Assembly: GCA_016235165.1 (NCBI GenBank)
Contig: JACRLX010000044.1
Coordinates: forward strand, 1 to 64,000
DNA from: Rhodocyclales bacterium
GTDB taxonomy: Bacteria; Pseudomonadota; Gammaproteobacteria; Burkholderiales; Rhodocyclaceae
DNA length: 64,000 bases
Direction: 5' to 3'
Position numbers and translations under genes: made by a program. The notes under the pieces are model-generated. The model ran no database searches. It had not been told where the DNA came from and saw only the letters and a list, made by a program, of their open reading frames with translations. Positions 25,725 through 43,160 of this stretch are shown here, in pieces (positions within the stretch are counted from its first letter, which is position 1; every line of letters begins with the position of its first letter).

Positions 25725-25727
25725 TCC

Positions 25728-26298: not shown

Positions 26299-26312
26299 TT
26301 GATTCACGTCAA
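26299..26312. promoter_or_regulatory. FNR/DNR-type box upstream of nosZ
   Basis: TTGATTCACGTCAA matches TTGAT-N4-ATCAA with one substitution (GTCAA). It is centred about 134 bases before the nosZ ATG. A -41.5 position would give a start near 26347 and a long leader. It supports anaerobic or NO-dependent control of nosZ. Confidence 0.7.
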
Positions 26313-26439: not shown

Positions 26440-28728
26440 ATGAAAAAGTTTAACAAGCAAGCCTCCACGCTGCTCCTCGCGGCGGGAATGGGGCTGGCGG
26501 CGACCGCCTGGTCGGCCGACAACCTGCAGGACGTGCTCAAGGCGCGCGGCCTGTCCCAGCAGGACCTGCTGGCGGCGGCCAAGACCTACGTGCCGACCGG
26601 CAAGCGCGACGAATTCGTCACCTTCAGCTCGGGCGGCCAGTCCGGCCAGGTCATCGTCTATGGCGTGCCCTCGATGCGCATCCTCAAGTACATCGGCGTG
26701 TTCACGCCCGAGCCCTGGCAGGGCTACGGCTTCGACGAGAACTCGAAGAACGTGCTGAAGCAGGGCCGCATCGACGGCAAGGACATCACCTGGGGTGACA
26801 CCCACCACCCGGCCGTGTCCGAGACCAACGGCGAGTACGACGGCCAGTTCCTGTTCATCAACGACAAGGCCAATCCGCGCCTGGCGGTGATTGACCTGCG
26901 CGACTTCGAAACCAAGCAGATCGTGGTCAACCCGATCTACAAGTCCGAGCACGGCGGTGCCTTCGTCACCACCAACACCGAGTACGTGATCGAGGCGGCG
27001 CAGTATCCGGCCCCGCTCGAAAACAAGAAGTTCTTCCCGCTGGAAGAGATGAACGAGAAGTACCGCGGCGGCGTCACCTACTGGAAGTTCGACCGCAAGG
27101 AAGGCCGCATCGTGGCCAAGGACTCCTTCTCGGTTGAACTGCCGCCTTACTGGCAGGATCTGTCGGATGCCGGCAAGGGCCCGTCCGACGGCTGGTCGTT
27201 CACCAATTCCTTCTGCTCCGAGCGTTACGTGGGCGGCATCGAAAAGGGCCGTCCGCCGTATGAAGCCGGCTGCTCCGCCAAGGACACCGACTACCTGCAC
27301 GTGATCAACTGGAAGAAGGCCGCCGAAGTGGTCAAGGCCGGCAAGGCCAAGCAGATGAATGGCCACAACCTGATCACGATCGAGACCGCGATCAAGGAAG
27401 GATTGCTCTACCTGATCCCCGAGCCGAAGAGCCCGCACGGCGTGGACGTCACCCCCGACGGCAAATTCATCGTGGTTGCCGGCAAGCTCGACACCCATGT
27501 CTCCGTGTACAGCTTCGAGAAGATCCAGGCCGCGATCAAGGCCGGCAAGTTCGAGTCCAAGGATTCCTACGGCATCCCGGTGCTCGGCTTGAAGGACGCG
27601 CTGCATACCCAGGTGTCGCTGGGCTTGGGCCCCTTGCATACCCAGTACGACAGCAAGCCCTGCGTGGCCTATACCTCGCTCTACGTGGATTCCCGGGTCG
27701 CCAAGTGGAACTACTGCGAAGGCAAGGTGCTGGACAAGCTCAGCGTGCATTACAACATCGGCCACCCGATGACCATGGAAGGCGATTCGACCAAGCCGGC
27801 CGGCAAGTATCTCGTCGCGCTGAACAAGCTGTCGATCGACCGCTTCGTCCCGGTCGGGCCGCTGCAACCGCAGAGCCACCAGCTGATCGACATCAGCGGC
27901 GACAAGATGCAGCTCTTGTATGACATGCCGCTGCCGCTGGGCGAGCCGCACTATGCCGTGTCGATCGCCGCCAACAAGCTGAAGCCCGCCGTGCGCTACA
28001 AGGTCGGCACCGACAGCCGCACCGACAAGCCGCATCCGGGCGCGGTGCGTGCCGGCGAGGAGAAGACGGTCAAGAAGGGCAACAAGGTCGAAGTCTTTGC
28101 CACCCTGATCCGCTCGCACATCACTCCCGAGACCATCGAGGTCGATGTCGGCGACGAGGTGACGATCCACCTGACCAACCTCGAGCGCGCGCAGGACGAG
28201 ACCCACGGCTTCACGGTGTCGACCTACAACACGCATGCCTCGATCGAGCCGGGCAAGACCGTCAGCGTCAAGTTCAAGGCCGACAAGGAAGGTGTCTATC
28301 CCTACTATTGCACGGAGTTCTGCTCCGCCCTGCACCTGGAGATGATGGGCTACCTGCTGGTCAAGCCGAAGGGCTGGAAGCCGACCAAGACCACCCTGGC
28401 CAAGGGCAACTACACGGAAGCGGACTACAAGGCGACCGTGAAGAAAGTAGCCGACACCCAGGCGATCATCGACTCCGTCGTGGCTTACATTACCAGCGTA
28501 AACTACAAGGACTTCCCGGATGTGGTGGCGATGGTGGAAGACGCCTTCGACCAACTGGGCAAGACCAAGGGCCTGAAGGAGAAGCATGAAGGCTTTGCCG
28601 CCAAGAAGGACTGGGAGAATGCCAACCTGTGGGCCGAGCAGATCTGGCAGTACCAGGTCAAGACCGCCGACCTCGGATTGCGCGCCAAGACCTACCTTGA
28701 GCAGAACGGCGCCAAGAAGGTCAAGTAA
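26440..28728 (+). CDS. nosZ: Nitrous oxide reductase, clade II (Sec-exported) NosZ
   Basis: Periplasmic copper enzyme reducing N2O to N2, 762 residues from ATG 26440. The signal peptide is Sec type (MKKFNKQASTLLLAAGMGLAATAWSA) with no twin-arginine motif. The CuZ propeller motif is DTHHPAVS (120-127), the DxHHxxxS form of clade II rather than DxHHxH. CuA is CTEFCSALHLEM at 624-635. About 115 residues follow CuA (KPTKTTLAKGNYTEADYK to the end), a helical extension with no CXXCH heme motif; in some clade II enzymes this place holds a cytochrome c domain. An FNR-type box precedes it and a strong terminator follows. Confidence 0.97.
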   Translation: MKKFNKQASTLLLAAGMGLAATAWSADNLQDVLKARGLSQQDLLAAAKTYVPTGKRDEFVTFSSGGQSGQVIVYGVPSMRILKYIGVFTPEPWQGYGFDENSKNVLKQGRIDGKDITWGDTHHPAVSETNGEYDGQFLFINDKANPRLAVIDLRDFETKQIVVNPIYKSEHGGAFVTTNTEYVIEAAQYPAPLENKKFFPLEEMNEKYRGGVTYWKFDRKEGRIVAKDSFSVELPPYWQDLSDAGKGPSDGWSFTNSFCSERYVGGIEKGRPPYEAGCSAKDTDYLHVINWKKAAEVVKAGKAKQMNGHNLITIETAIKEGLLYLIPEPKSPHGVDVTPDGKFIVVAGKLDTHVSVYSFEKIQAAIKAGKFESKDSYGIPVLGLKDALHTQVSLGLGPLHTQYDSKPCVAYTSLYVDSRVAKWNYCEGKVLDKLSVHYNIGHPMTMEGDSTKPAGKYLVALNKLSIDRFVPVGPLQPQSHQLIDISGDKMQLLYDMPLPLGEPHYAVSIAANKLKPAVRYKVGTDSRTDKPHPGAVRAGEEKTVKKGNKVEVFATLIRSHITPETIEVDVGDEVTIHLTNLERAQDETHGFTVSTYNTHASIEPGKTVSVKFKADKEGVYPYYCTEFCSALHLEMMGYLLVKPKGWKPTKTTLAKGNYTEADYKATVKKVADTQAIIDSVVAYITSVNYKDFPDVVAMVEDAFDQLGKTKGLKEKHEGFAAKKDWENANLWAEQIWQYQVKTADLGLRAKTYLEQNGAKKVK

Positions 28729-28751
28729 GCAAGCCGCATAGCTGCACGTTT

Positions 28752-28787
28752 CGGGGGACAGACTCCAGGCTGTCCCCCGTTTTCTTT
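28752..28787 (+). terminator. Rho-independent terminator after nosZ
   Basis: CGGGGGACAG (28752-28761) pairs perfectly with CTGTCCCCCG (28770-28779) around an eight-base loop, followed by TTTTCTTT (28780-28787). It lies 23 bases after the nosZ stop and just before the next cytochrome gene. Probably it isolates abundant nosZ message or acts as an attenuator for the accessory genes. Confidence 0.88.
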
Positions 28788-28803
28788 AGGAAAGGAAGAA
28801 ACC

Positions 28804-29112: not shown

Positions 29113-29135
29113 GGCGCCACGCGGCGGCGGCGCAA

Positions 29136-29149
29136 TTGATGCCCATCAA
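29136..29149. promoter_or_regulatory. FNR/DNR-type box upstream of the diheme cytochrome
   Basis: TTGATGCCCATCAA is a perfect TTGAT-N4-ATCAA dyad. At -41.5 spacing the -10 would be GATCAT (29172-29177, four of six matches) and the start about 29184, 27 bases before ATG 29211. This is the best-spaced of the boxes in the window. It probably drives the nos accessory operon. Confidence 0.85.
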
Positions 29150-29210
29150 TGAGCGCTGATATACGCGATGGGATCATGCCTGCAACCCAACCAACAGTGA
29201 GGAACATGAA

Positions 29211-29960
29211 ATGCGCAAGATACTGACCCTGGCCCTCTCCGCTGCCCTGCTGCCGGCTTTTGTCCTGGCCGCCGGCCCGCGCGACGCGCCCAAGGCCGCC
29301 GGCATCGAGTCCAAGGACTACCAGTGGGCGAAGATGGAAGGCGAGCTCAAGGAAGCCCTGGACAAGAAGGGCGATCTCAAGCGCGGCAAGGAAACCTATG
29401 AAATCTGTGGCGCCTGCCACCTGCCCACCGGGGCCGGGCGTCCCGACGGCACCTTCCCGCAGCTCGCCGGACAGCACACCACGGTGCTGATCAAGCAAAT
29501 GGCCGACATCCGCATGGGTCTGCGCGACAACCCGACCATGTATCCCTTCGCCAAGGAAATGACCGATCCGCAGGATCTGGCCGACACCGCCGCCTACATC
29601 CAGAGCCTGTGCATTCCGGTCGACCACGGCAAGTACGAAGGCCCGGACGCCGCCAAGCAGGTCGCCGCCGGCAAGGAGCTGTATGAAAAGCAGTGCGTCG
29701 AGTGCCACAAGGCCAACGGCGAGGGCGTCAAGGATAAGTTCTATCCCGTGCTCGCCGGCCAGCACTACAAATACCTGCTGCGCCAGATGACCGAAATCCG
29801 TGACGGGCATCGGCGCAACGCCAATCCGGACATGGTCAAGGTGATCAAGCCCTACACCAACGACCAACTGGTGGCGATCTCCGCCTATCAGTCCAGCCTG
29901 TCGATGCCGGGTTCGATGTGCAAGGCCGGCGCGGCGAAGGGCGGCGCCAAGAAGAAATAA
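29211..29960 (+). CDS. Diheme cytochrome c (c4-like) of the nos operon
   Basis: A 249-residue periplasmic cytochrome. The signal peptide ends at FVLA-A; a helical spacer of about 45 residues follows, then CGACH and CVECH domains. Each c domain has a c4-type FPQLAGQHTTVLIKQ / YPVLAGQHYKYLLRQ motif. Two additional Cys (SLCIPVDHG; GSMCKAG) sit at the domain ends. It is closely similar to the protein at 44284-45012. Position behind its own FNR-type box and before nosB/nosD suggests electron delivery from the NosGH/quinol side to NosZ. Confidence 0.87.
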   Translation: MRKILTLALSAALLPAFVLAAGPRDAPKAAGIESKDYQWAKMEGELKEALDKKGDLKRGKETYEICGACHLPTGAGRPDGTFPQLAGQHTTVLIKQMADIRMGLRDNPTMYPFAKEMTDPQDLADTAAYIQSLCIPVDHGKYEGPDAAKQVAAGKELYEKQCVECHKANGEGVKDKFYPVLAGQHYKYLLRQMTEIRDGHRRNANPDMVKVIKPYTNDQLVAISAYQSSLSMPGSMCKAGAAKGGAKKK

Positions 29961-29975
29961 AATATCGATCCGCAA

Positions 29976-30007
29976 GCCTGCGCGACGGCGTTGGCCGCCG
30001 CGCAGGC
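29976..30007 (+). other. Intercistronic stem-loop
   Basis: GCCTGCGCG-A-CGGC pairs with GCCG-C-CGCGCAGGC around GTTG, a 13-bp stem with one internal mismatch between the diheme cytochrome and the NosB-like gene. No T-run follows. It probably adjusts mRNA stability or read-through. Confidence 0.5.
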
Positions 30008-30048
30008 CGCGAGCGGGCTGCATCTCCCCCCAACGAATCGAGAACGAC

Positions 30049-31023
30049 ATGCAAGACAAGAAGAACCGGCTGGTCACGATCCTGACCCTGATCGGCATGG
30101 CGGCACTGATGGCCGCCTATTTCGCCCCCGTCTGGTGGGTTTCGCTGACTGCCCCGAACTACCCCAAGGACGCTTTCCCCGACGGCATCCGCATCCACTT
30201 TCATTTCGACGGCGTGTATAACGGCTGTAGCGCGGCCGGCAAGGGCACGCGCACGGCCGACGAGGTGCTGCAAAAGGATCTCGACCATACCGTCGAGCGC
30301 TATAACCCGGTGCTGGACAAGCAGAAGAACGTGAACAAGGATGCCGAGGGCCTCGATTGCGTGCACGAGATGAACACCATCAACCATTACGTCGGCATGT
30401 TCCCGATCGCCACCGGGGCGCCGGTGGAAAAGCCGATGGCCAAGTTCTTCTTCGGTTTCTTCGCCGCCATGCTGATCGGCTTCATCGCTCCGGCACGGCG
30501 TCGTGTGGCGGTGCTCGGCGCCGGGTTCGCCGCGGTTGCCGCCTGGATGCTGACCCACCAGTACGCGCTGGGCAACCTCGAAAGCCACGTCACCCATTAC
30601 GTAAACGAGGCCGGAACCTTTTTCAAGGAACCGGACAAGATCAAGGTCTGGGGCGACAACGTGCGCCTGGTGACCCACGGCGTCATCGCCGGCCTGATCC
30701 TGGCCATGGCCATCGTTCTGGCGGGGGTGGCCAAACTGCGCGGCTTCCAGTTGCTGCTGGTGCTGGTTCCCGCCCTGATGCCGGTCTTCTTTGTCCTCGA
30801 ATACGCCGGCTGGCTCTGGTTCTTCGGCCACAACCTGCATCCCTGGGGCGCCTTCACGGTGAAGCCCTTCATGCCCACGGTGTTCGGCGAGGGCAAGGTG
30901 GCGCAGTTCTCCACCTTCTCCTATCCCTACTGGGGCTACGGCCTGCTGCTGCTGTCCTCCGCCTGCCTGTTGCCGGCCATGTTGCTGCGTCGTCAGCAAT
31001 TGCGCGATGGCGGGGAGAGTTGA
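30049..31023 (+). CDS. NosB-like polytopic membrane protein
   Basis: A 324-residue inner-membrane protein with about six hydrophobic helices: near 9-32, then 138-158, 162-180, 215-240, 244-268 and 300-318. A large periplasmic loop (about 33-135) contains YNGCSA and LDCVHEMNTINHYVGM, i.e. two Cys and several His. Clade II nos clusters carry a membrane protein called NosB at this place (between nosZ and nosD), so I call it NosB-like from position and topology. Its biochemical role is not established. Confidence 0.65.
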   Translation: MQDKKNRLVTILTLIGMAALMAAYFAPVWWVSLTAPNYPKDAFPDGIRIHFHFDGVYNGCSAAGKGTRTADEVLQKDLDHTVERYNPVLDKQKNVNKDAEGLDCVHEMNTINHYVGMFPIATGAPVEKPMAKFFFGFFAAMLIGFIAPARRRVAVLGAGFAAVAAWMLTHQYALGNLESHVTHYVNEAGTFFKEPDKIKVWGDNVRLVTHGVIAGLILAMAIVLAGVAKLRGFQLLLVLVPALMPVFFVLEYAGWLWFFGHNLHPWGAFTVKPFMPTVFGEGKVAQFSTFSYPYWGYGLLLLSSACLLPAMLLRRQQLRDGGES

Positions 31024-31030
31024 GCGCGTC

Positions 31031-32422
31031 ATGAACCCGAAGCGCTGGCATGCCCTGCTGCCGGCCCTGCTGCTCGGTGTATCGACCCTGCTGGTGGCGC
31101 GTCCGGCCGACCGCGACGCGGGCGAGGACAAGCCGCCCGCCCTGGGGGCCACGGCCGATCTGTCACAGGCACCGCGGGTCGGTGTCGATCGGCCCAAGCC
31201 CACCTACATGCTGCACGAGCGCGACAAGCGGGTGCATGGCCTCAAGCCCTTCCAGGAACTGGTGGACGCGGCGCCGGCCGGCTCCGTGCTGCGGCCGCCG
31301 CCCGGCAGCTATGCCGGGCCGGTGGTGATGAAAAAGCCGCTCACCATCGAAGGCGGCGGCCAGGTCAGCATCGATGCCGGTGACAAGGGCACCGTGTTTT
31401 CGCTGGAAACCGACGGCGCGGTGCTGCGCGGCCTGCACCTGACCGGCTCCGGCGATTCGCACGACACCGACGATGCCTGCCTCGATGTGCGCGGCCATCG
31501 CAACACGATCGAGAAACTGGTGATCGACAACTGCCTGTTCGGCATCGACCTCAAGCAGTCCAGCGACAACCTGCTGCGCGGCAACAAGATCAGCTCCAAG
31601 CCGCGCGATCTGGGCGTGCGCGGCGATGGCCTGCGCCTCTGGTACAGCGACCGCAATCGCATCGAGGACAACGAGGTGATCGATTCGCGCGACATGGTGG
31701 CCTGGTATTCGCACGAGAATGCCTACCGCCGCAATGTCGGCCGCCGCAGCCGCTATTCGATCCACTTCATGTTCGCCAACAACAATGTGGTGGAGGACAA
31801 CGAGTTCCACGACAATTCGGTGGGCGTCTACTTCATGTACACCGAGGGCGGCATTCTCCGGAACAACCTGATATCCCACGCCACCGGCGCGGCCGGCATG
31901 GCGATCGGTTTCAAGGAGGCGAGCAACACGGTGATCGAAGGCAATGAAATCATTTATTGCGCGGTCGGCATCGGCTCCGACCTCTCGCCCTTCCAGCCCG
32001 ACAGCAAGATCTGGGTGAAGAACAACCGCTTCGCCTACAACGGCATCGCCATCAAGCTGACCTCCGAACTTGGCGGCAATGTCGTCACCGACAACGTCTT
32101 CGAGGGCAACCTGACCCACGTGGTGCAGGCCGGGCGCAACAAGTCCGGCCTCAACGACTGGCGCGGCAACTACTGGGACGACTACCAGGGATTCGATCGC
32201 AACGGCGATAATGTCGGCGATACACCCTATGAACTCTATGCCTTTGCCGACCAGATCTGGATTGAAATGCCGCCGGCGCGCTTTTTCAAGACCGCGCCGG
32301 TGATGGAGTTGCTCGACTTCCTCGAACGCCTGGCGCCGTTTTCCTCGCCCGAGCTGACACTCAAGGACGACAAGCCGCGCTTTCGCAAACCGGAAACGGA
32401 GAAAGGCAAGGTGAGGGGATGA
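31031..32422 (+). CDS. nosD: NosD, periplasmic copper-site maturation protein
   Basis: A right-handed beta-helix protein (CASH/NosD domain) needed with NosF and NosY to build the CuZ sulfide cluster. ATG 31031 (MNPKRWHALL) starts a membrane or signal helix; about 463 residues. Repeats of the type NNVVEDNEFHDNSVGVYFMYT and NTVIEGNEIIYC run through residues 150-380. The ending GNYWDDYQGFDRNGDNVGDTPY...FLERLAPFSSPELTL is the NosD signature. A frame extension to 31007 overlaps the upstream gene and lacks function. Its stop overlaps nosG. Confidence 0.93.
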   Translation: MNPKRWHALLPALLLGVSTLLVARPADRDAGEDKPPALGATADLSQAPRVGVDRPKPTYMLHERDKRVHGLKPFQELVDAAPAGSVLRPPPGSYAGPVVMKKPLTIEGGGQVSIDAGDKGTVFSLETDGAVLRGLHLTGSGDSHDTDDACLDVRGHRNTIEKLVIDNCLFGIDLKQSSDNLLRGNKISSKPRDLGVRGDGLRLWYSDRNRIEDNEVIDSRDMVAWYSHENAYRRNVGRRSRYSIHFMFANNNVVEDNEFHDNSVGVYFMYTEGGILRNNLISHATGAAGMAIGFKEASNTVIEGNEIIYCAVGIGSDLSPFQPDSKIWVKNNRFAYNGIAIKLTSELGGNVVTDNVFEGNLTHVVQAGRNKSGLNDWRGNYWDDYQGFDRNGDNVGDTPYELYAFADQIWIEMPPARFFKTAPVMELLDFLERLAPFSSPELTLKDDKPRFRKPETEKGKVRG

Positions 32423-33321
32423 GCGAGATGCGCAAACCCGACGAGGAGCAGCCTCGGTCGCAAGCAGCTGACGTCCCCGCTGCGCCCTCGGGGCCCGCCG
32501 CCAAGCCGCCGCCTTCGCGCGAGCGCCTGCAACAGGCGCGGCGCAAGTGGCTGCGCACCATCCTGCTCACCGGTGGCGTCACGGGTGCCGCACTGTCGGG
32601 CTTCCTGCCGCTGGTGTATGCGCGGACCAAGCGCCTGCGTCCGCCCGGTGCGCTGGACGAAAAGGACTTCCTTGCTTCCTGCATCAAGTGCGGGCAGTGC
32701 GTACAGGTCTGCCCGGTGCAGGCGATCAAGCTCGCCGACCTGGTCGATGGCTTCGGTGTCGGCACGCCCTACATCGATGCCCGCGACCAGGCCTGCGATT
32801 TTTCCTGCGATGCCGTGCAATGCATCCTCGCCTGCCCGACCGGCTCTCTGGTGTACAAGAAGCCGGCCTTCCTCGGCACGCGCAAGGGCGCCAAGCTCGC
32901 CGCCGCGCCCATCCTCAAGGCCAAGGAAAAGGATGCCGAGCCGACGCTCAACCTGGCCGAGCGCATTGGCGTGGCGCGCCTGACGCGGCCGGAATCCTGC
33001 CTCGCGATCAAGGGCCAGGGTTTCAAAGGCCAGACGCGCGGCGCGGGTTTCAAGGGTCGGTTGCGCTACATGGAGGTCGACCGCTGGAAGCCGATCAAGG
33101 TGGCCGATCATCCCTACGACATTCCGGAATGCGACCTTTGCGTGCGCGAGTGCCCGGTCAAGGGCGCCATCAGCATCGAGACCGTGTTCGCCCCCGACGG
33201 CAGCAAGCGCAAGTCGCCGGTGGTGCATGAGCCCTGCGTCGGCTGCGGCGTTTGCGAAATGGTCTGCCCGGTCGAGCCGACCTGCATCGTGGTCGAGGCG
33301 CGCGAGGTGTGGAATACATGA
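32419..33321 (+). CDS. nosG: NosG, NapG-type 4x[4Fe-4S] ferredoxin
   Basis: A 300-residue iron-sulfur protein. An N-terminal Tat-like/anchor region (RRKWLRTILLTGGVTGAALSGFLPL) is followed by four cysteine clusters: CIKCGQCVQVCP, CDFSCDAVQCILACP, CDLCVRECP and CVGCGVCEMVCP. NapG/NosG pairs with the membrane quinol dehydrogenase NapH/NosH to pass electrons to periplasmic cytochromes. It overlaps nosD and nosH by four bases each. NosGH replaces NosR in clade II systems. Confidence 0.92.
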   Translation: MSEMRKPDEEQPRSQAADVPAAPSGPAAKPPPSRERLQQARRKWLRTILLTGGVTGAALSGFLPLVYARTKRLRPPGALDEKDFLASCIKCGQCVQVCPVQAIKLADLVDGFGVGTPYIDARDQACDFSCDAVQCILACPTGSLVYKKPAFLGTRKGAKLAAAPILKAKEKDAEPTLNLAERIGVARLTRPESCLAIKGQGFKGQTRGAGFKGRLRYMEVDRWKPIKVADHPYDIPECDLCVRECPVKGAISIETVFAPDGSKRKSPVVHEPCVGCGVCEMVCPVEPTCIVVEAREVWNT

Positions 33322-34301
33322 ACCAATTCCTCAAGAACCGCTTCTTCGACCAGATCGCGGTGATGTTCGGCCGCGAGGCGAAGAAGCCGGTGGCGATCTC
33401 GCCCGTGGCGCAGCAGTTCCACGCCATGAAGCGCGCGACCAACAAGGAACGCCTCGCGGCGATGATCCGCGAGCACCACGCCACGGGGAAGAAGGTGCAC
33501 ACCTGGCGCAACCGGCGCTGGGCGGTGCTGATCCTTGCCAACCTGTTGTTCACCGTCTCCTTCTGGCTCGACATCCAGGTGCTCGAAGGCGCCCTGACGG
33601 CCTCCCGCTTCATCGGCTTCCACCTGATCGACCTGAATTCGGCCCTGCAGGTGATGCTGGCGCACAAGCACATCATCGTGAATCTGGTGATCGGCACGGG
33701 AACGATATTGGTGCTCTGGCTGCTGCTCGGCGGGCGGAGCTTCTGTTCCTGGGTCTGCCCCTACCACCTGCTCGCCGAATGGGCCGAGAACATCCATCTT
33801 TGGCTGGTGAAACAGAAGCTGGTCACCGATCAGCCGATGGACAGGCGTCTGCGCACGGGTTCCTGGCTGGTTTTCGCGGCTCTGGCGCTGGCCACCGGCT
33901 ACACCGTGTTCGAGGCCATCTCGCCCACCGGCATCGTCTCGCGCGCCCTGATCTACGGTCCCGGCCTGGCCCTGCTGTGGGTGCTGGCGCTGCTGGTGTT
34001 CGAGGTTTTCTTCTCGCGCCGCGCCTGGTGCCGCTATGCCTGCCCGATCGGCCTCACCTACGGCGTGGTCGGCATTTTCTCGCCGGTGCGCGTCAAGTAC
34101 ACCCTGGCCGAATGTTTCCACGAGGGCGATTGCCGCAAGGTCTGCCTGGTGCCGCACGTGCTGGACACCGTGATCAAGGGGCGCGCGGTCGATGTCGAGG
34201 TGCCGCTCGGGCCGGATTGCACGCGCTGCGGCCTGTGCGTCGACACCTGCCCGACCGGCTCGCTCAAATTCGAGGTCAAGGGCCTCTCCAAATTGATGTA
34301 G
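33318..34301 (+). CDS. nosH: NosH, NapH-type membrane quinol dehydrogenase
   Basis: A 327-residue membrane protein from ATG 33318. It has about four or five membrane helices, two CxxxCP motifs typical of NapH/NosR (CSWVCPYH and CRYACPIG), and C-terminal ferredoxin motifs CRKVCLVP and CTRCGLCVDTCP. It should oxidise (mena)quinol and transfer electrons through NosG to cytochromes. The nearby menA- and menG-like genes fit a menaquinol donor. Its start overlaps the nosG stop. Confidence 0.92.
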   Translation: MNQFLKNRFFDQIAVMFGREAKKPVAISPVAQQFHAMKRATNKERLAAMIREHHATGKKVHTWRNRRWAVLILANLLFTVSFWLDIQVLEGALTASRFIGFHLIDLNSALQVMLAHKHIIVNLVIGTGTILVLWLLLGGRSFCSWVCPYHLLAEWAENIHLWLVKQKLVTDQPMDRRLRTGSWLVFAALALATGYTVFEAISPTGIVSRALIYGPGLALLWVLALLVFEVFFSRRAWCRYACPIGLTYGVVGIFSPVRVKYTLAECFHEGDCRKVCLVPHVLDTVIKGRAVDVEVPLGPDCTRCGLCVDTCPTGSLKFEVKGLSKLM

Positions 34302-34308
34302 GCACACG

Positions 34309-35196
34309 ATGATCCGTTTTGAAAACGTCGCCAAGAGCTTTCGCAAATCGCGCGTGCTCGACGCCATCAACCTGGAGATCGGGGCCGCCGAGCGCGTCGC
34401 CCTGATCGGCTCCAACGGCGCCGGCAAGACCACGCTGATCCGCTGCCTGCTCGGCGAATACGCCTTCGAGGGCAAGGTCACGATCAACGGCCGCGATCCG
34501 CGCCAGGAGCGCACCGCCGTGCTCGGCACGATCGGCTTCGTGCCGCAACTGCCGCCACCGCTGAAAATGCCCGTGGCGCAGCTGATCGATTTTTCCGCCG
34601 CGCTGTGCGGCACCGATCCGGCAAATATTCATGAACTGGCGCGCCGCCTCGGCCTCGACCTCGATCCGATACTCACGCGGCCCTTCGTCAAGCTTTCCGG
34701 CGGCATGAAGCAGAAATTGCTGATCGCCATTGCGCTGGGCCGCGAGGCGAAAGTGCTGATCATGGACGAACCGGCGGCCAATCTCGATCCCGAGGCGCGC
34801 AAGATCTTCTTCGAGTTGCTGGCCGAGCGCCAGGACGACAGCACCATGCTGATTTCCAGCCACCGCCTCAACGAGGTCTCGGCCCTGGTCAATCGCGTGA
34901 TCGAAATGGACCTAGGCAAGGTGGTGCTCGATGACCGCGTCGCCGATGACGTTTCGCTCTCCGGCCAGTTCGCCTGCCGCATCGCCATCAAGCGCAACGA
35001 GGCGGCCTTCCTCAAGGCCATGCAGACCTGGAACTTCAGGGATACGGGGAATGGCCTGGAGTGGGTAGGCGTCGTGCCCGGCCCCGACCGGCTGCGCTTC
35101 ATGGGCATGACCTCGCGCTACGTGGCCCTGATCAGCGATTTTTCGCTGGCGGAAGCGGAAGGCGCAGGAGTCGGCGCTGGCGAGACGGTGAACTGA
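34309..35196 (+). CDS. nosF: NosF, ABC ATPase for NosZ maturation
   Basis: A 295-residue ATPase with Walker A GSNGAGKTT, signature KLSGGMKQKLLIAIAL and Walker B VLIMDEPAANLD, plus the SSHRLNE switch. A C-terminal extension of about 80 residues (ACRIAIKRNEAAFLKAM...) is normal for NosF. With NosY it forms the transporter that feeds CuZ assembly by NosD. It is seven bases after nosH and overlaps nosL. Confidence 0.92.
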   Translation: MIRFENVAKSFRKSRVLDAINLEIGAAERVALIGSNGAGKTTLIRCLLGEYAFEGKVTINGRDPRQERTAVLGTIGFVPQLPPPLKMPVAQLIDFSAALCGTDPANIHELARRLGLDLDPILTRPFVKLSGGMKQKLLIAIALGREAKVLIMDEPAANLDPEARKIFFELLAERQDDSTMLISSHRLNEVSALVNRVIEMDLGKVVLDDRVADDVSLSGQFACRIAIKRNEAAFLKAMQTWNFRDTGNGLEWVGVVPGPDRLRFMGMTSRYVALISDFSLAEAEGAGVGAGETVN

Positions 35197-35660
35197 TGGA
35201 TCGGCGCCGTTTCATCGCCTCGGGTTTTGCGCTGACACCATTGGCCGCCGCCCTGTCCGCTTGTGGCAGCAAGGGCGACTGGCCCGAGGGCATGGCCGAG
35301 ATCAAGTGGGACCGCGACACCTGCGCGCGTTGCTCGATGGTGATTTCCGACCGCCGTTTTGCCGCCGAGATGCGCGGCGGCGAGAAGGGCATCGTGTTCA
35401 AGTTCGACGACATCGGTTGCGCCATGTTCTGGTTGCGCGACAAGGCAAAGGACTTTCCCTGGATGGCCGAGCCGGCGACGCGGCTCTGGGTGGCCGACGC
35501 CGCGGGCAAGGGTGACAAGTGGCTGGACGCGCGCAAGGCGCACTACGCTGGCGGCGCCATGTCGCCCATGGGTTACAACTTCAGCGCACGCAGTTACGCC
35601 GAAGCCGGATCGCAGGGCTTCGAGGAAATGCGCCAGCACGTGCTGGCCAAGGGAAAGTGA
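35196..35660 (+). CDS. nosL: NosL copper-chaperone lipoprotein
   Basis: A 154-residue periplasmic Cu(I) chaperone for NosZ. ATG 35196 overlaps the nosF stop. The N-terminus has both a twin-arginine-like RRRFIASGF and a lipobox ALSAC. CARCSM and Met/His residues around FDDIGCAMFW and GGAMSPMGYNF are candidate Cu(I) ligands; MSPMGYNF is characteristic of the NosL family. It should hand copper to apo-NosZ. Confidence 0.88.
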   Translation: MDRRRFIASGFALTPLAAALSACGSKGDWPEGMAEIKWDRDTCARCSMVISDRRFAAEMRGGEKGIVFKFDDIGCAMFWLRDKAKDFPWMAEPATRLWVADAAGKGDKWLDARKAHYAGGAMSPMGYNFSARSYAEAGSQGFEEMRQHVLAKGK

Positions 35661-35661
35661 A

Positions 35662-36489
35662 ATGAAGCAGCTCTGGTTGACGGCAAAACTCGACATCGTT
35701 GAATCCCTGCGCGCGCGATGGTTCCAAGTCTATAGCCTGGTCTTCGGCGGCATCGTCGCGCTGCTCTTCCTGTTCGGCCTCACCGAATCGCGCGTGCTGG
35801 GTTTCATCGGCCTCTCGCGCCTGCTGGTGACATACATCCAGCTGACCATGGCGATCCTGCCGATCTTCGTGCTGATCACAACGGTGCGCTCGGTGGCGGG
35901 CGATCGCGAGGCCGGCGTCTATGAATACCTGCTGTCCTTGCCGGTGTCGCTGGCGGCCTGGTTCTGGGGCAAGATTCTCGGCCGCTACCTCGTCATCTTC
36001 CTGCCGGTGTTCGCCGCCATGCTGCTGGCCGTGGCGATCGCCCTGGTGCGCGGCATCGAGGTGCCCTGGGCCATGTTCGGCTACTACACGGCCCTGCTGG
36101 CGGTGATGTGCGCCTGCTTCCTCGGCCTCGGCATGCTGATCTCGGCGCTGGCGCGCAGCACCGACATGGCGCAGGGCGCGGCCTTCGTCGTCTGGCTGAC
36201 GCTGCTGCTGTTCCTCGACCTGATCCTGCTCGGCGTCATGATCCAGGGCAAGGTCTCGCCCGAGCTTGCCGTGAGCATGGCGCTGGCCAATCCGCTGCAA
36301 GTCTTCCGCACCGCCGCGCTGGCCCTGTTCGATCCGCAGCTGATCGTGCTCGGGCCTTCGGCCTATGTCATCCTCGATATGTTCGGGGCCACCGGCTACA
36401 AGATATTTGCGCTGGTGTATCCCACGCTGCTCGGTGTTGCGGCGGCAACGCTGGGCTACCAGTTGTTCAAGCGGGGCGATTTGCCGTGA
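35662..36489 (+). CDS. nosY: NosY, ABC permease for NosZ maturation
   Basis: A 275-residue permease with six hydrophobic helices starting at residue 22. Landmarks are FQVYSLVFGGIVALLFLFGL, FVLITTVRSVAGDREAGVYEYLLSLPVS (the coupling region of ABC-2 permeases) and FLGLGMLISALARSTDMAQGAAFVVWLTLLLFLDL. ATG 35662 begins two bases after the nosL stop. The NosFY channel supplies the sulfur species for CuZ via NosD. Confidence 0.92.
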   Translation: MKQLWLTAKLDIVESLRARWFQVYSLVFGGIVALLFLFGLTESRVLGFIGLSRLLVTYIQLTMAILPIFVLITTVRSVAGDREAGVYEYLLSLPVSLAAWFWGKILGRYLVIFLPVFAAMLLAVAIALVRGIEVPWAMFGYYTALLAVMCACFLGLGMLISALARSTDMAQGAAFVVWLTLLLFLDLILLGVMIQGKVSPELAVSMALANPLQVFRTAALALFDPQLIVLGPSAYVILDMFGATGYKIFALVYPTLLGVAAATLGYQLFKRGDLP

Positions 36490-36974
36490 TGAGACGCCTG
36501 CTGCTGCTGATCGCGGTCATCGCCTCGTCACTGGCCCAGGCCGCCGGCAGCGACGCCCTGTTCGCCGCGAAGCACAGCAGCAGCGATGACAAGCCGGTCG
36601 CCCTCGAAAGCTTTCGCGGCAAGCCGCTGATCGTGAATTTCTGGGCGCGCTGGTGCGCGCCCTGCCGGGTCGAGATTCCGGAGCTGGCCAAGACCCAGGA
36701 CAAGTACGGTAAGCGTGGCCTGACGGTGATCGGCATCGGTCTCGAAGACAAGGCGGAATCGGTGCGCGACTTCATGAAGGCCTACGACATGAACTACACC
36801 GTGCTGCTGGCCAGGAGCGGCGGCATCGAATTGATGCAGGCGCTGGGCAACAGCCGCGCCGGCCTTCCATTTACCGTGGCGATCAATCGCCGTGGCGAGA
36901 TCGTCGCCAGCAAGCTGGGCGCGATGAATCGCGCCGACCTCGATGCCGCCGCCGAGGCGGCGCTGAAGCGCTGA
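36489..36974 (+). CDS. TlpA-like periplasmic thioredoxin
   Basis: A 161-residue secreted thioredoxin-fold protein. The signal peptide ends at LAQA-A, and the active site is FWARWCAPCRVEIPEL. A GLPFTVAINRRGEIV cis-Pro region follows. It probably reduces disulfides during cytochrome or copper-centre (CuA, NosL, Sco) assembly. Its ATG overlaps the nosY stop and its stop overlaps the ubiE-like start, so it is inside the nos transcript. Confidence 0.88.
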   Translation: MRRLLLLIAVIASSLAQAAGSDALFAAKHSSSDDKPVALESFRGKPLIVNFWARWCAPCRVEIPELAKTQDKYGKRGLTVIGIGLEDKAESVRDFMKAYDMNYTVLLARSGGIELMQALGNSRAGLPFTVAINRRGEIVASKLGAMNRADLDAAAEAALKR

Positions 36975-37744
36975 TGGCATCGCTGCCGCCGGACCACGCG
37001 CTCGGCACCAGCTTCGGTCGCGAGACGGTCAGCAGCGGCGAACGCCGGCATCGCATCCGGCGCGTCTTCGAGGCCGTGGCGCCGCGCTACGACCTGATGA
37101 ACGACCTCATGTCCTTCGGCATCCACCGCCTGTGGAAGCGCCGCCTGGCGCGCGGCGTCGCCGTCGGCCGTGGCCTCGTCGTCGATCTCGCCGGCGGTAC
37201 CGGGGACGTGGCCCGCCTGCTTGCCGGCGAAGGCCGCCGCGTGGTGGTCTGCGATCCCAGCCTGCCGATGATGCGCGAGGGCGTCGCGCGTGGCGCGGCC
37301 ATCGAGTGGTTGGCCGGCGAGGCCGAGTCCTTGCCGCTGGCCGATGCCAGCGTCGATCTGCTGACCGTGGCCTTCGGCCTGCGCAATGCCACACGCATCG
37401 AGGCGGCGCTGGCCGAGGCCCGCCGCGTGCTGAAGCCGGGTGGGCGGTTCGCCTGCCTCGAATTCTCGCGACCGGCGTTTTGGCTGGCGCCCTTCTACGA
37501 CCTGTATTCCTTCCTGGTGATTCCGCGCCTGGGCGCCCTGGTGGCCGGCGAGCCGCTGGCCTACCAGTATCTCGTCGAATCGATCCGCCGTTTTCCGGAC
37601 CAGCGGGGCTTTGCCGCCATGATGGCGCAGGCCGGTTTCGAGGACGTGCGCTGGGAAAATGTATCCTTCGGCATTGCCTGCATTCATTTCGGGCACTTGC
37701 CCGAAGTCGGCAAGCCACAAGAGCGGAAGCCGCCCATCCCATGA
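36974..37744 (+). CDS. UbiE/MenG-type quinone methyltransferase
   Basis: A 256-residue SAM-dependent methyltransferase. UbiE signatures are visible: VFEAVAPRYDLMNDLMSFGIHRLWKRR, motif I LVVDLAGGTGDVARLL, the TVAFGLRNATRIEAAL loop and RRVLKPGGRFACLEFSRP. It should methylate demethylmenaquinone (and/or a ubiquinone precursor) at the ring carbon. It starts one base inside the thioredoxin stop and overlaps menA. Placement with menA suggests a menaquinone rather than ubiquinone job; a second housekeeping ubiE would be expected elsewhere. Confidence 0.85.
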   Translation: MASLPPDHALGTSFGRETVSSGERRHRIRRVFEAVAPRYDLMNDLMSFGIHRLWKRRLARGVAVGRGLVVDLAGGTGDVARLLAGEGRRVVVCDPSLPMMREGVARGAAIEWLAGEAESLPLADASVDLLTVAFGLRNATRIEAALAEARRVLKPGGRFACLEFSRPAFWLAPFYDLYSFLVIPRLGALVAGEPLAYQYLVESIRRFPDQRGFAAMMAQAGFEDVRWENVSFGIACIHFGHLPEVGKPQERKPPIP

Positions 37745-38655
37745 GACCCGAACTGCCTGCCGCCGTGACGACCGCGCCGCCCACCGGTTGGCGCGTGTGG
37801 TGGACGGCGGCCCGTCCGCGCACGCTGAGCATTTCGGTGACACCGGTTCTGGTCGGCAGCGCATTGGCCTGGAGCCAGGCCGGCAGCATCGCCTGGCTGC
37901 CCCTGCTGGCCAGCCTGCTGTGCGCCATGCTGATCCAGGTCGGCACCAACTTCCACAACGACGCAGCCGACTTCGAGCGCGGCACCGACAATCCCGAGCG
38001 CATCGGTCCGCTGCGCGTCACGGCGGCCGGCTGGGCCAGTCCGCGCGCCGTGCGTCTGGCCGCGGCGGTCAGCTTCGCGTTGGCGGCGGCCTGCGGCAGT
38101 TATCTGGTGGCGGTTGGCGGCTGGCCGATACTCGTCATCGGCATCGCTTCCCTGCTGGCCGGCTGGGCGTATTCGGGAGGGCCGTGGCCGATTTCGCACA
38201 CGCCGCTGGGCGAGATGTTCGTTCTCGCCTTCTTCGGCCTCGCCGCCGTGGCCGGCAGCCATTGGCTGCAACTTTCCGGCCTGCCGCCGGCGGTGTGGAT
38301 TGCCGGTGGCGCCGTGGGCCTGCCGGCGGCGGCCGTGCTGCTGGTCAATAACTATCGCGATTGCGAGGGCGATGCGCGCAGCGGCCGGCGCACCCTGGCC
38401 GTGCTGATCGGCCGCGAGATGTCGCGCCGGGTCTATGCGCTGCTGATGATCGCTCCGTATGGCGCGCTGCTGCTGCTTGCCGGCGACGGGCGGTACGGCG
38501 CCTTGACCGGATTCCTGGCGCTGCCACTGTCGCTGTCCCTGGTGCGCCGCCTGTGGCGCACGGCGCCGGGGCCCCAGCTCAACCTGCTGCTGGCCGACAC
38601 GGCCCGCGCCGGCTTCGCGCTCGGGCTCCTGCTGGCCCTGGGCTTGCTGTTGTGA
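37741..38655 (+). CDS. menA: MenA-like 1,4-dihydroxy-2-naphthoate prenyltransferase
   Basis: A 304-residue UbiA-superfamily membrane prenyltransferase. The first Asp motif is GTNFHNDAADFERGTDNPERIGPLRVT; the second is NNYRDCEGDARSGRRTLAV, both as in MenA. Eight or nine hydrophobic helices cover the rest. It should attach the polyprenyl tail to DHNA in menaquinone synthesis. It overlaps the methyltransferase (ATGA) and the next transporter. A menA gene inside a nos operon is unusual for a betaproteobacterium, where ubiquinone dominates. The upstream men genes (menF/D/C/B or mqn) are not in the window. Confidence 0.87.
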   Translation: MRPELPAAVTTAPPTGWRVWWTAARPRTLSISVTPVLVGSALAWSQAGSIAWLPLLASLLCAMLIQVGTNFHNDAADFERGTDNPERIGPLRVTAAGWASPRAVRLAAAVSFALAAACGSYLVAVGGWPILVIGIASLLAGWAYSGGPWPISHTPLGEMFVLAFFGLAAVAGSHWLQLSGLPPAVWIAGGAVGLPAAAVLLVNNYRDCEGDARSGRRTLAVLIGREMSRRVYALLMIAPYGALLLLAGDGRYGALTGFLALPLSLSLVRRLWRTAPGPQLNLLLADTARAGFALGLLLALGLLL

Positions 38656-39545
38656 AGCTGCCCATCGTCGAACTGTTCCTGCCCCTGGCGCTGGGCTTCA
38701 TCATGTTCTCGCTCGGCCTGACCCTGGTGGTCGCCGATTTTCGCCGCGTGTTCCTGCGTCCGCGTGCGATGCTGCTCGGCTTCGTTGGCCAGATTTTCCT
38801 GGTGCCGCTGGCGGCGCTGGTCATGACACTGGCGTTCGGCCTTGGCGGCGAGATGGCGGTCGGACTGATGATCCTCGCCGCTTGCCCGGGCGGTGTCAGC
38901 TCCGGTTTGCTCACTCATCTGGCACGTGGCGACACGGCGCTCTCGATCTCGCTGACCGCGGTAACCAGCATTCTCGCCGTGCTCACGGTGCCGCTGGTGG
39001 TCGATGCGTCGATGCAGCATTTCATGCATGCCGGGGCGCGGGTCGAGTTCCCGCTCGGCAGCATGGTGCGCGGCGTATTCCTGCTGACCACGGTGCCGGT
39101 CGTGCTGGGCATGGGCCTGCGCGCCTGGCGACCCGGCGTCGCCGCGCGCATCGAGCGTCCGGCGGGACGTCTGGCCACGGCGCTGTTCGTACTGATCGTG
39201 CTGGCCACCTTCTTCAGCCAGCGTCAGGTCCTGCTCGACAATCTCGGTCGCGTCGGCCCGGCGGCCATGCTGCTCAACCTTGCCGTGATCGCCGGCGGAT
39301 TCGCCCTCGCCGCCACGGGGGGGCTCGGGCGGCCCGGGCGGATTGCGGTGGCCACCGAATGCGGCCTGCAAAACGCCGGGCTCGGCATTTTCATCGCCGC
39401 CGGCGTGCTCCACTCGCCGGCGATGGCGGTGCCCAGCGTGGTCTATGCGCTGTTGATGAACCTCGGCGCGATCGCCTTCGTCTTCCTGATGCGCGGCGAC
39501 GGTCGCGACGCGGGGTGCGGCCCGGCCGAAGCTGCCAGTCGATGA
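38652..39545 (+). CDS. BASS-family (bile acid:sodium symporter-like) transporter
   Basis: A 297-residue membrane protein starting at GTG 38652, which overlaps the menA stop. Nine or ten helices carry BASS motifs: AACPGGVSSGLLTHLARGDTALSISLTAVTSILAVLTVP and ATECGLQNAGLGIFIAAG (the E-x-G-x-QN sodium-site region). The substrate is unknown; relatives move organic anions with sodium. Its co-transcription with menA could point to a quinone precursor or a sulfur/organic anion. This is speculative. Confidence 0.85.
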   Translation: MKLPIVELFLPLALGFIMFSLGLTLVVADFRRVFLRPRAMLLGFVGQIFLVPLAALVMTLAFGLGGEMAVGLMILAACPGGVSSGLLTHLARGDTALSISLTAVTSILAVLTVPLVVDASMQHFMHAGARVEFPLGSMVRGVFLLTTVPVVLGMGLRAWRPGVAARIERPAGRLATALFVLIVLATFFSQRQVLLDNLGRVGPAAMLLNLAVIAGGFALAATGGLGRPGRIAVATECGLQNAGLGIFIAAGVLHSPAMAVPSVVYALLMNLGAIAFVFLMRGDGRDAGCGPAEAASR

Positions 39546-40741
39546 AGCCGTTCATGGCTTTTGCCGCCGCGCTTTTCGCGGCGGCCGCGTTCGCGGCGCC
39601 AGCGCTGCAGCCGCTGATCGATGCCACGCCGCCGGGGGGCACGTTGAAGCTCGCGCCGGGGGCCTATGCCGGGCCGGCGCGGGTCACCCAGGCCATCACG
39701 CTCGATGGCGGCGGCAAGGCGGCAATCGTCGGCGACGGGCGCGGCACGGTGCTTACCGTCAATGCCAATGGCGTGAGCTTGCGCGGATTGCGCATCGCCG
39801 GCAGCGGCGAATCGCACGACGCGGTCGATGCCGGCATCCTGCTCGAAGGCGATGGCCACACAGTCGAAAACAATGTCATCGAGGACGTGCTGTTCGGCAT
39901 CCACCTCAAACGCGTCAATGGCTCGCGCATCGCCGGCAACCAGGTTACCGGCAAGCCGCTCGACCTTGGCATGCGCGGTGACGCGATCCGCCTCTGGTAC
40001 AGCCGCGACAACCGGGTGGACAACAACCGCTTCCGGCGCGCGCGCGACCTTACCTTCGCCAACTCGCCCGATAATCACGTCACTGGCAACCGCTTCGTCG
40101 ATGGCCGCTATGGCATGCACGTGATCTTTTCGCCGCGCCTGCGCGTGGAGAACAACTACCTCGGCCATACCGGCACCGGCATCATCGTGCTCTATTCGCC
40201 CGACCTGCTGCTGCGCGGCAACCACGTCGCCCATGCCCTGACCGGCGGCGGCGCCGGCATCGTGTTCAAGGAAAGCCACGACGCGCTGGTGGAAGGCAAT
40301 GAAGTGCTGCACTGCTCGGTCGGCCTGCGCGTCGATGCGCCGCCGGAATCGGTGGGCAAGCTGACGGTGCGCGGCAACCGCTTCGCCCACAACATCGTCG
40401 GCCTCTTCTTCTATGGCGAGGAAGGTGGCCATCGCTTCACCGACAACCGTTTCGAGAACAACCTGACCACCGTCGGCATCAGCGCCCCCGGCGCAGGCAG
40501 CGCCAACGTCTGGCGCAACAACTACTGGGACGAATACCAGGGCTTCGACCGCGACGGCGACGGCATCGGCGATACGCCGCACGAAGCCTACCTGTTTGCC
40601 GACCGCATCTGGATGGAAACGCCGATGGCCACCTTCTTCCGCAACTCGCCGGTGCTGGAGATGCTGGATTTCCTCGAACGCCTGGCACCATTCTCTTCGC
40701 CGCATCTGGTCCTGCGCGATCCCGCGCCGCGCATGAAATAG
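39542..40741 (+). CDS. nosD: Second NosD-type beta-helix protein
   Basis: A 399-residue secreted parallel beta-helix protein (signal AAALFAAAAFAAP). It is clearly homologous to the NosD at 31031: both share the opening PGGTLKLAPGAYAGP-type motif, the GIHLKRVNGSRIAGNQ repeats, and the ending NNYWDEYQGFDRDGDGIGDTPHEAY...FLERLAPFSSPHLVLRD. Two different NosD genes in one cluster is unusual. It overlaps the BASS gene (ATGA). It may serve a second substrate enzyme or have split duties with NosD1. Confidence 0.88.
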   Translation: MKPFMAFAAALFAAAAFAAPALQPLIDATPPGGTLKLAPGAYAGPARVTQAITLDGGGKAAIVGDGRGTVLTVNANGVSLRGLRIAGSGESHDAVDAGILLEGDGHTVENNVIEDVLFGIHLKRVNGSRIAGNQVTGKPLDLGMRGDAIRLWYSRDNRVDNNRFRRARDLTFANSPDNHVTGNRFVDGRYGMHVIFSPRLRVENNYLGHTGTGIIVLYSPDLLLRGNHVAHALTGGGAGIVFKESHDALVEGNEVLHCSVGLRVDAPPESVGKLTVRGNRFAHNIVGLFFYGEEGGHRFTDNRFENNLTTVGISAPGAGSANVWRNNYWDEYQGFDRDGDGIGDTPHEAYLFADRIWMETPMATFFRNSPVLEMLDFLERLAPFSSPHLVLRDPAPRMK

Positions 40742-40776
40742 CCCACTACAATCGACGCCAACAACAAGGAAGCCGC

Positions 40777-41172
40777 ATGAAAATTCACCGACTCGCATCA
40801 TTGTTCGCCATCGCCGTACTCTCGACGCCGTCCCACGGGGATACCGTTCCCGGCTACGCCGGGAACATAACTTCTTCCCTCGCCGCCGACGCCGAAGCCG
40901 GCCTGGCCGCGGTTACCGACCTCGGCGGCATCAACGGCACGGCACTGGCCTGTTCCGACATGAAGTCGGCGGCGCGCGCCCGCGAGCTGATGCTGGCCCA
41001 TGCGCCCAAGACCCCGCGCTTCGGCGCCGCCTACGAAGAAGCGACCAACGCCGCCTTCAACGCCCAGACCCGCTCCGGCAAGCCCTGCGCCGACCCGGTC
41101 GAACGCACGGCGCAGCTCAACCAGCTGGCCCTGCGGCTGGGCGAGGCCCTGCCGATCGCGCCCAGGCAATGA
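40777..41172 (+). CDS. Hypothetical secreted protein
   Basis: A 131-residue protein with a Sec signal (MKIHRLASLFAIAVLSTPSHG). The mature part is helical with only two Cys (ALACSDMKS and GKPCADP), perhaps disulfide-bonded. An AACAAGGAAG ribosome site precedes it. Its stop overlaps the Sco start (ATGA), so it is coupled to a copper chaperone. I recognise no family. Confidence 0.7.
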   Translation: MKIHRLASLFAIAVLSTPSHGDTVPGYAGNITSSLAADAEAGLAAVTDLGGINGTALACSDMKSAARARELMLAHAPKTPRFGAAYEEATNAAFNAQTRSGKPCADPVERTAQLNQLALRLGEALPIAPRQ

Positions 41173-41792
41173 GGCCTGCGGGCCGGACCTGCCGCACCGG
41201 CGTGCTGTTCGCCGCATTGCTGGCGGCCGGATTTACACCGCCGCCGGCCCTGGCCGCCGATGTGCGCCACGCGGCCGCGCCGGCCGACACGCTGCCGCTG
41301 CTGCCGCGCTACCTGCTGATGGACGTGCAGGGCCGGGCGGTGAGCCATGAGGATTTTCGCGGCCGCTTCCAGCTCGTCAGCTTCGGCTTCATTTCCTGCC
41401 CCGACGTCTGCCCGACCACGCTGCTGGAGGTCAGGCAACTGCTCGAAGCCCTGGGCGACAAGGCCGGGCGGGTGCAGGCGATCTTCATCACGGTTGATCC
41501 CGAACGCGACACGCGCGAGGTGTTGCGCGACTACACGGCGGCTTTCGACAAGCGCATCCTCGGCCTTACCGGCAGCCCCGAGCTGGTGCGCCGCGCCGCC
41601 GAGAGCTTTCGCGTCCAGTATGAGACGGTGCGCGAACCGGGTGCCGCGGCCGACAACTACACCATGAACCATACCGCCGGCATGGTGCTGCTCGACCCGC
41701 GCGGGCGCTTCCTGGCGCGTTTCGGATACGGCATGGGCGCGCACGCGATGAGCGAGCGCCTGCTGGCCGAGATCGCCGCCGAGCAACGCTGA
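41169..41792 (+). CDS. SCO1/SenC-type copper chaperone
   Basis: A 207-residue thioredoxin-fold protein, secreted or membrane-tethered by the N-terminal helix. The copper ligands CPDVCPT and the downstream His (NYTMNHTAGMVLLD) are intact, as is FITVDPERDT. Sco proteins metallate CuA sites of oxidases and, in some bacteria, NosZ. Since NosZ has a CuA centre and this gene follows the nos run, a NosZ role is likely. Confidence 0.88.
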   Translation: MRPAGRTCRTGVLFAALLAAGFTPPPALAADVRHAAAPADTLPLLPRYLLMDVQGRAVSHEDFRGRFQLVSFGFISCPDVCPTTLLEVRQLLEALGDKAGRVQAIFITVDPERDTREVLRDYTAAFDKRILGLTGSPELVRRAAESFRVQYETVREPGAAADNYTMNHTAGMVLLDPRGRFLARFGYGMGAHAMSERLLAEIAAEQR

Positions 41793-41805
41793 GCGTCGGC
41801 TCGCG

Positions 41806-43071: not shown

Positions 43072-43160
43072 CCGATTTCGCCCCCTTGGGCAGCCTGCAC
43101 ATTCTTGTGCGGCGCGAAACGCTCGCTGATATTGCCGTGATTCAAGGCGCGCGAGCCTGC

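Follow-up and report, generated by a model that had tools for sequence, protein, structure and literature searches.

The 64,000-nucleotide window analyzed here (positions 1 to 64,000 of contig JACRLX010000044.1, assembly GCA_016235165.1, from a Rhodocyclales bacterium) carries a clade II nitrous oxide (N2O) reduction (nos) operon, the 3′ part of which contains two genes for the final steps of menaquinone synthesis, ubiE and menA, next to a gene for a transporter of the BASS fold. The gene row nosY-tlpA-ubiE-menA-BASS-nosD2, which lies 3′ of a Sec-type nosZ, was confirmed, with every junction overlapping (Table 1). A preliminary description of the locus had reported four-base overlaps downstream of nosY; this holds for three junctions, namely ubiE/menA (ATGA), menA/BASS (GTGA), and BASS/nosD2 (ATGA), whereas nosY/tlpA and tlpA/ubiE share a single base (TGATG). 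The same five genes are found in the same order in genus mates and behind the nos genes of two Burkholderiales-type metagenome-assembled genomes, with proteins that are approximately 48–83% identical, and because the order repeats in this way, the row goes beyond chance.

The Sec-dependent NosZ and the NapH-type protein exceed their cut-offs, as expected of a clade II N2O reductase operon, and the NapG-like protein is below its own. MenA membership is indicated by the curated score of the window protein together with its two intact Asp-rich motifs, the residues of which are identical in all 105 aligned rows. The nos-linked UbiE exceeds the cut-off of the subfamily model (TIGR01934) and misses those of stricter equivalog models (for example NF001242, 249 versus 351 bits); since another UbiE above the cut-off is encoded elsewhere in the genome (G000:C52, 247 bits), the nos-linked protein appears to be additional to the copy that presumably serves ubiquinone. 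The BASS protein matches the PF01758 family profile and has the helical two-domain BASS fold, and reaches 178 bits against TIGR00841, below the cut-off of 326. Purifying selection on MenA and BASS is apparent from median ratios of nonsynonymous to synonymous substitution rates (dN/dS) of 0.07–0.15 in two genera, and of 0.25–0.32 in a third set of three genomes.

Table 1. Features of the nos operon and its flanks in the 64,000-nucleotide window.
Feature	Position	Strand	Evidence or remark
FNR/DNR-type box, one mismatch	26299..26312	+	141 bases before nosZ ATG; pattern scan, consensus match only
nosZ, Sec-dependent clade II nitrous oxide reductase	26440..28728	+	ATG at 26440, searched from 26443; TIGR04246, 921 bits (cut-off 625)
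FNR/DNR-type box, perfect	29136..29149	+	75 bases before second cytochrome c gene; possible operon-tail promoter region
Cytochrome c, second such gene of the nos cluster	29211..29960	+	Pfam PF00034
nosD, first copy	31007..32422	+	TIGR04247, 365 bits
nosG, NapG-like ferredoxin	32419..33321	+	Top match NapG NF007012, 126 bits, below cut-off 269
nosH, NapH-like membrane ferredoxin, presumed quinol dehydrogenase	33318..34301	+	TIGR02163, 223.5 bits (cut-off 213)
nosF, nosL, nosY (copper maturation)	34309..36489	+	nosF, ABC ATPase by translation; nosY, ABC2_membrane_2; nosL by position only, without family match
tlpA-like periplasmic thioredoxin	36489..36974	+	Redoxin PF08534; nosY ends at 36489
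ubiE/menG methyltransferase	36974..37744	+	TIGR01934, 248 bits (cut-off 158)
menA, 1,4-dihydroxy-2-naphthoate polyprenyltransferase	37741..38655	+	NF004751, 277 bits (cut-off 264); TIGR00751, 172 bits (cut-off 102)
BASS-fold transporter, predicted importer of 1,4-dihydroxy-2-naphthoate or close relative	38652..39545	+	SBF PF01758, 114 bits (cut-off 24.3)
nosD2	39542..40741	+	TIGR04247, 340 bits (cut-off 300)
Small open reading frame, then SCO1/SenC copper protein	40777..41792	+	Small frame without Pfam match at E 1e-5

The genome to which the window belongs (4.47 Mb, 57 contigs, 99.99% complete) has menA and ubiE, and lacks the upstream enzymes for 1,4-dihydroxy-2-naphthoate (DHNA), the substrate of MenA, in a search that covered MenD (best match 52 bits, cut-off 244), MenB (no match at E 1e-70), and MqnC (no match at E 1e-3) and left out MenF, MenC, MenE, and the other Mqn genes. 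Weak MenD-like matches (30–52 bits), all far below the cut-off, are read as other thiamine diphosphate (ThDP) enzymes. As for the futalosine route, a protein related to MqnC occurs in 15 of 200 relatives, in every case under the cut-off (298–338 versus 428 bits). Because MenD, MenB, and MqnC are absent, DHNA does not appear to be made by a known route, and the genotype, with menA and ubiE present and MenD and MenB missing, is that of a DHNA scavenger. The preliminary description had suggested a dedicated menaquinone pool made by the cell itself, which would be refuted if the genome held no DHNA-producing pathway; as written, this suggestion is not supported, and for the three genes covered the outcome comes close to that refuting result.

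The relation between BASS and the men pathway was followed in an even sample of 395 genomes from the larger family, in each of which only the best four to six first-look candidates were scored. A window-type MenA (E 1e-38 or better) is carried by 101 of them, the window's own genome counted and four weaker matches (1e-31 to 1e-34) dropped before counting. MenD exceeds its cut-off in 57 genomes, 52 of which are among the 101, and a window-like BASS (E 1e-45 or better) occurs in 42, including 33 of the 101. Among these MenA genomes, BASS is present in 0 of the 52 with MenD versus 33 of the 49 without it (Fisher p 8e-15, uncorrected for kinship), and the pattern is the same at a completeness of at least 98% (0/38 versus 19/25). 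A MenB search of 80 of these genomes, comprising the 49 that lack MenD and 31 of the 52 that have it, gave a match over the cut-off in all 31 MenD genomes, in none of the 33 BASS genomes, and in 5 of the 16 with neither; these five (G105, G359, G404, G338, and G320) therefore probably have the pathway, MenD having been missed or lost. When the pathway is scored as MenD or MenB, BASS is found in 0/57 genomes with it and in 33/44 without it. The MenB-like matches in the BASS genomes G463, G302, and G323 (311–320 bits) fall below the cut-off of 343 and, as a protein of this kind accompanies a true MenB in G213, are read as paralogues. MenD over the cut-off is likewise absent from eight BASS-bearing records that were found by way of named loci and include Burkholderiaceae, Steroidobacteraceae, and Azonexus (0/8, with two weak matches of 85–88 bits); six of these were not recognised in the family sample, their completeness is not given, and one, a 9.6-Mb Victivallales bin, may be mixed.

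In the genomes with both MenA and BASS, the two genes are usually neighbors: no more than 1 kb separates them in 28 of 33, and contig ends may explain two further cases, as G210 has a menA fragment beside BASS at a contig end and both genes of G428 run to contig ends. In the remaining three (G342, G391, and G355), BASS resides in the nos operon 3′ of tlpA and menA is located elsewhere. Nine BASS matches fall in genomes without a counted window-type MenA; in one of these, G378, a menA piece adjoins BASS at a contig end, and in G345, G043, and six genomes of one genus the matches are more distant (35–44% identical). Four BASS matches (G311, G366, G378, and G274) were flagged with one stop, which is read as the natural stop because the proteins, at 286–296 residues, reach the usual C-terminal end.

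The synthesis block and the putative import gene share a single position in the operon. Behind nosY, G264 and G048 carry tlpA-ubiE-menA-menB-menC-menE-menF-menD-nosD2, all in one orientation, and foreign genes of the opposite orientation separate menC from menE; in G425, the nos operon continues from menA with menF-menD-menB-menC, and menE is convergent. Profiles of G425 and G264 place MenF, MenD, and MenB over their cut-offs, and MenC (130.3 and 119.9 versus 130.55 bits) and MenE (267 and 214 versus 330 bits) are best matches below theirs. In G058, G221, G348, G360, and G373, five men genes behind menA were assigned by similarity to these. In all, then, the nos clusters of eight relatives have menA followed by five men genes at their end, which bears out the earlier proposal that menaquinone genes are tied to nos. 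BASS takes the place between menA and nosD2 in 17 genomes (the window's and 16 others), with all three genes on the same strand in 14 and nosD2 on the opposite strand in G302, G441, and G279; nosD2 lies upstream instead in G275 and G318. In G079 and G116, the men block is 2–4 kb from nosZ and largely divergent from it. Overall, at least two nos genes were found no more than 8 kb from menA in 28 of 108 MenA genomes (BASS in 18 and the pathway in 10); as some stretches are short, this count is a minimum. A second, distant MenA-like prenyltransferase (approximately 34% identical) is found between tlpA and ubiE in two relatives (L080:6210-7097; L012 near 3436, L128:7263); the L080 protein scores below all listed DHNA-prenyltransferase cut-offs, and matches as distant as this are common among the 200 relatives.

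The linked BASS proteins constitute one clade (support 100/99), which is marked by a substitution in the sodium site. In ASBT_NM, Asn 115 is a sodium ligand, Asn 265 is needed for the binding of pantoate, and replacement of Thr 112 with Val or Ala raised the pantoate affinity (PMC10645422). The position of Asn 115, in helix 4b, is occupied by Gly or Ala in 58 of 58 linked loci and by Asn in 47 of 47 unlinked ones; the window protein has Gly 85 there and thus departs from the pantoate type at this site, and conforms to it at N241, which corresponds to the pantoate-contacting Asn 265 and is invariant in a 40-row alignment. At the Thr 112 position, the linked clade has Val or Ala. Compared with ASBT_NM, ASBT_YF, and PanS, the linked proteins therefore stand apart by Gly or Ala for Asn 115 in every linked locus examined, and the window protein is far under the cut-off of the curated PanS model (NF047939, 88 versus 400 bits). 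Unlinked homologues with the ordinary Asn (32–45% identical; L135–L178) are frequent in records of Euryarchaeota and Neomarinimicrobiota.

The distribution was also set against kinship. A MenA tree of 105 rows (55 pathway, 39 BASS, and 11 neither, the last including G130 and not G419) was built from a set that reaches beyond the 101 genomes and leaves out a few of them. The BASS label changes 8 times on this tree (7–10 in bootstrap trees, with the bootstrap not fully settled); supported branches require at least 6 of these changes. The pathway label changes 14 times. Supported sister contrasts place G425 inside G037/G333, G116 with G238, G079 with G057/G486, G432/G412/G380 with G342/G391/G355, and G070 with nine BASS genomes and two with neither. 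Of the independent pairs, none has BASS together with the pathway, approximately 4.5 are opposed, and 5.5 show no difference.

We consider it likely that the operon tail supports N2O respiration as a module for menaquinone salvage, in which BASS imports DHNA or a close relative for MenA and UbiE. As MenD and MenB are gone, MenA could use only external DHNA, and this need, together with the linkage of both versions of the module to nos, argues for a salvage mechanism. DHNA or a close relative released by neighboring cells would cross the outer membrane and be carried inward by BASS, probably with sodium; MenA would then prenylate it, and the nos-linked UbiE would methylate the product to yield menaquinol, from which electrons would pass through NosH/NosG and the nos cytochromes c to the clade II NosZ. 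The substrate, the inward direction, the sodium coupling, the quinone made, and the use of that quinone by NosH are predictions from sequence, and the NosH/NosG electron route is the least certain step, as the NapGH of E. coli can also use ubiquinol. The earlier idea that the transporter possibly moves a precursor has become the best supported part of the preliminary description.

Several observations weigh against this interpretation. The mutual exclusion of BASS and the men pathway, once corrected for kinship, is one-sided but weak and of low power: the sign test on independent pairs gives p 0.0625–0.125, and the raw Fisher value is therefore not to be taken at face value. Linkage of menA to nos is seen in only the 28 of 108 genomes counted above, and the pathway search in the window's genome was confined to three genes. 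The BASS pocket does not exclude pantoate, since Val or Ala at position 112 raised the affinity of ASBT_NM for it. Moreover, MenA can evidently persist without either supply, as MenD, MenB, and BASS are all missing from 11 MenA genomes (G452, G394, G233, G268, G293, G117, G059, G205, G071, G419, and G277). Four of these (G293, G117, G277, and G268) are 59–89% complete, the MenB-like piece of G394 is interrupted by an internal stop and scores below the cut-off (G394:C1:71327-71899), and the menA match of G419 is split over two overlapping frames, but G452, G233, G059, G205, and G071 are 90–100% complete and have no such excuse. No other transporter beside menA stood out by eye in 18 stretches that included genomes without pathway and BASS, an inspection made without a family search. 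In G311 (L094), the menA frame continues into the BASS start, which, like the MenB piece of G394, may represent pathway decay or assembly error.

The module might salvage a different aromatic hydroxy-acid, from which MenA and UbiE would make an unusual quinone in place of menaquinone; the pocket residues in which BASS differs from ASBT_NM and the UbiE score, over the subfamily cut-off and under the equivalog ones, would fit such a substrate, but MenA exceeds the DHNA-specific curated cut-offs and belongs to one family with the MenA of DHNA-pathway genomes, with the same catalytic motifs, so that we regard this reading as unlikely. It is also quite unlikely that the BASS substrate is an ordinary anion, such as pantoate or pyruvate, and that only operon history has kept the gene with menA. 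BASS substrates are diverse, and such an anion is favored by the binding of pantoate by ASBT_NM, by the retained Asn 265, and by the Val or Ala at position 112, which raised pantoate affinity in ASBT_NM (PMC10645422); the low score against the pantoate transporter model speaks against it, as does the fact that BASS and MenD/MenB exclude each other also in genomes in which BASS is not next to menA (G342, G391, and G355).

The two remaining readings would have the cell make its own DHNA. An undetected or non-homologous route, with another role for BASS in the operon, could hide behind the three-gene search and would account for the 11 MenA genomes with neither supply, yet MenD and MenB are both missing in 33 of 33 BASS genomes and BASS sits in place of the men block, which leaves this explanation a slim chance, slighter still than that of an ordinary anion. 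Relatives in which the men block follows menA within the nos cluster (for example G425, G264, and G048) probably do have a dedicated, endogenously made pool; for the window's genome, without MenD, MenB, and MqnC, such a pool is contradicted unless a missing stretch holds the genes, and we consider it very improbable.

The operon resembles Wolinella-type clade II nos operons with NosGH, which comprise a Sec-type NosZ, NosG/NosH, cytochromes c, and NosDFYL, all of which are present in the window; unlike them, the operon type described here also has a second NosD and menA, the latter accompanied by either the men block or BASS. In its quinone genes, it is comparable to DHNA scavengers such as group B Streptococcus, which has menA and ubiE alone. 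Such bacteria, with the final two enzymes and without the upstream pathway, take DHNA from their neighbors (PMC9704088 and PMC5738691), and Porphyromonas pasteri, which keeps only the last two genes, grows on DHNA (PMC9704088). The window's genome shares this pattern of retained and lost enzymes, and use of external DHNA is predicted for it as well, but unlike in scavengers of the P. pasteri type, for which the available text names no transporter, a transporter gene is linked here, and the module resides in the nos operon of a betaproteobacterial lineage.

DHNA cross-feeding is known from gut and oral bacteria. A 2017 study stated that no transporter for menaquinone or DHNA had so far been described (PMC5738691), and a 2023 paper still expected unidentified pathways of quinone uptake and modification in Lactiplantibacillus plantarum (PMC10746273). 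The PMC open-access literature, as far as it was available, contains no link between DHNA import and BASS, none between men genes and the nos operon, and no use of the phrase "DHNA transporter", which is not proof of absence in print. DHNA scavenging with the last two genes is thus known; new are the candidate transporter, its exchange with a synthesis block, and the tie to N2O respiration. With somewhat less assurance than for the salvage module itself, we think it probable that the linked BASS clade, with its characteristic loss of the sodium-ligand Asn, represents the first DHNA importer to be identified and defines a class of quinone-auxotrophic N2O reducers. Their clade II N2O respiration would run on menaquinone made from a community-shared precursor, with import and synthesis cassettes exchanged in one slot. 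If so, some clade II N2O reducers, which are part of a greenhouse-gas sink, would rely on neighbors for the quinone that drives the enzyme, and this dependence could be read from one gene. Betaproteobacteria are mainly ubiquinone users, and the proposal suggests a reason for the presence of quinone genes in the clade II nos clusters of lineages that otherwise use ubiquinone. A gene with this distribution makes the question of DHNA transport directly testable.

The quinone genes are most simply transcribed with nos, judging from layout and consensus matching, and gene order and overlapping junctions uphold their earlier placement within the nos operon. Two FNR/DNR-type boxes, both matches to a consensus, are listed in Table 1. 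Of 22 stretches examined for a box at the second cytochrome c gene, 11 have at least 100 bases upstream, and in 10 of these, the window counted, a box with at most one mismatch lies 69–90 bases before the gene; the exception, L138, has a two-mismatch box at 75 bases. The pattern scan found no box with at most one mismatch between 30000 and 44000. Boxes with up to two mismatches are enriched in the window as a whole (23 versus 8.35 expected, with 0 of 100 shuffles as high), and perfect ones start at 14055 and 29136. A terminator-like hairpin lies 3′ of nosZ (28752–28779); no further such sites were found on the plus strand in 35766–43760, a weak result in view of a regional total of 15 versus 12.6 in shuffles, and a sigma-70 scan of 25600–44000 gave 1 site versus 2.2 in shuffles, which is no evidence alone.

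The second NosD, which had been said to add to the puzzle, probably has no part in the quinone function, as nosD2 is conserved in both the BASS and the men-block forms and recurs with the downstream open reading frame and the SCO-type gene. The small frame at 40777 and the SCO1/SenC gene recur beside nosD2 or ubiE in relatives, and the three genes (39542–41792 in the window; L092 and L211) stay together even where a stretch shows no nosF or nosY, as if they formed a separate copper module. The window also encodes a fused AhbA/AhbB-like siroheme decarboxylase (19288–20295), NirJ of heme d1 synthesis (45084–46238), and a cobyric acid synthase (1765–3222).

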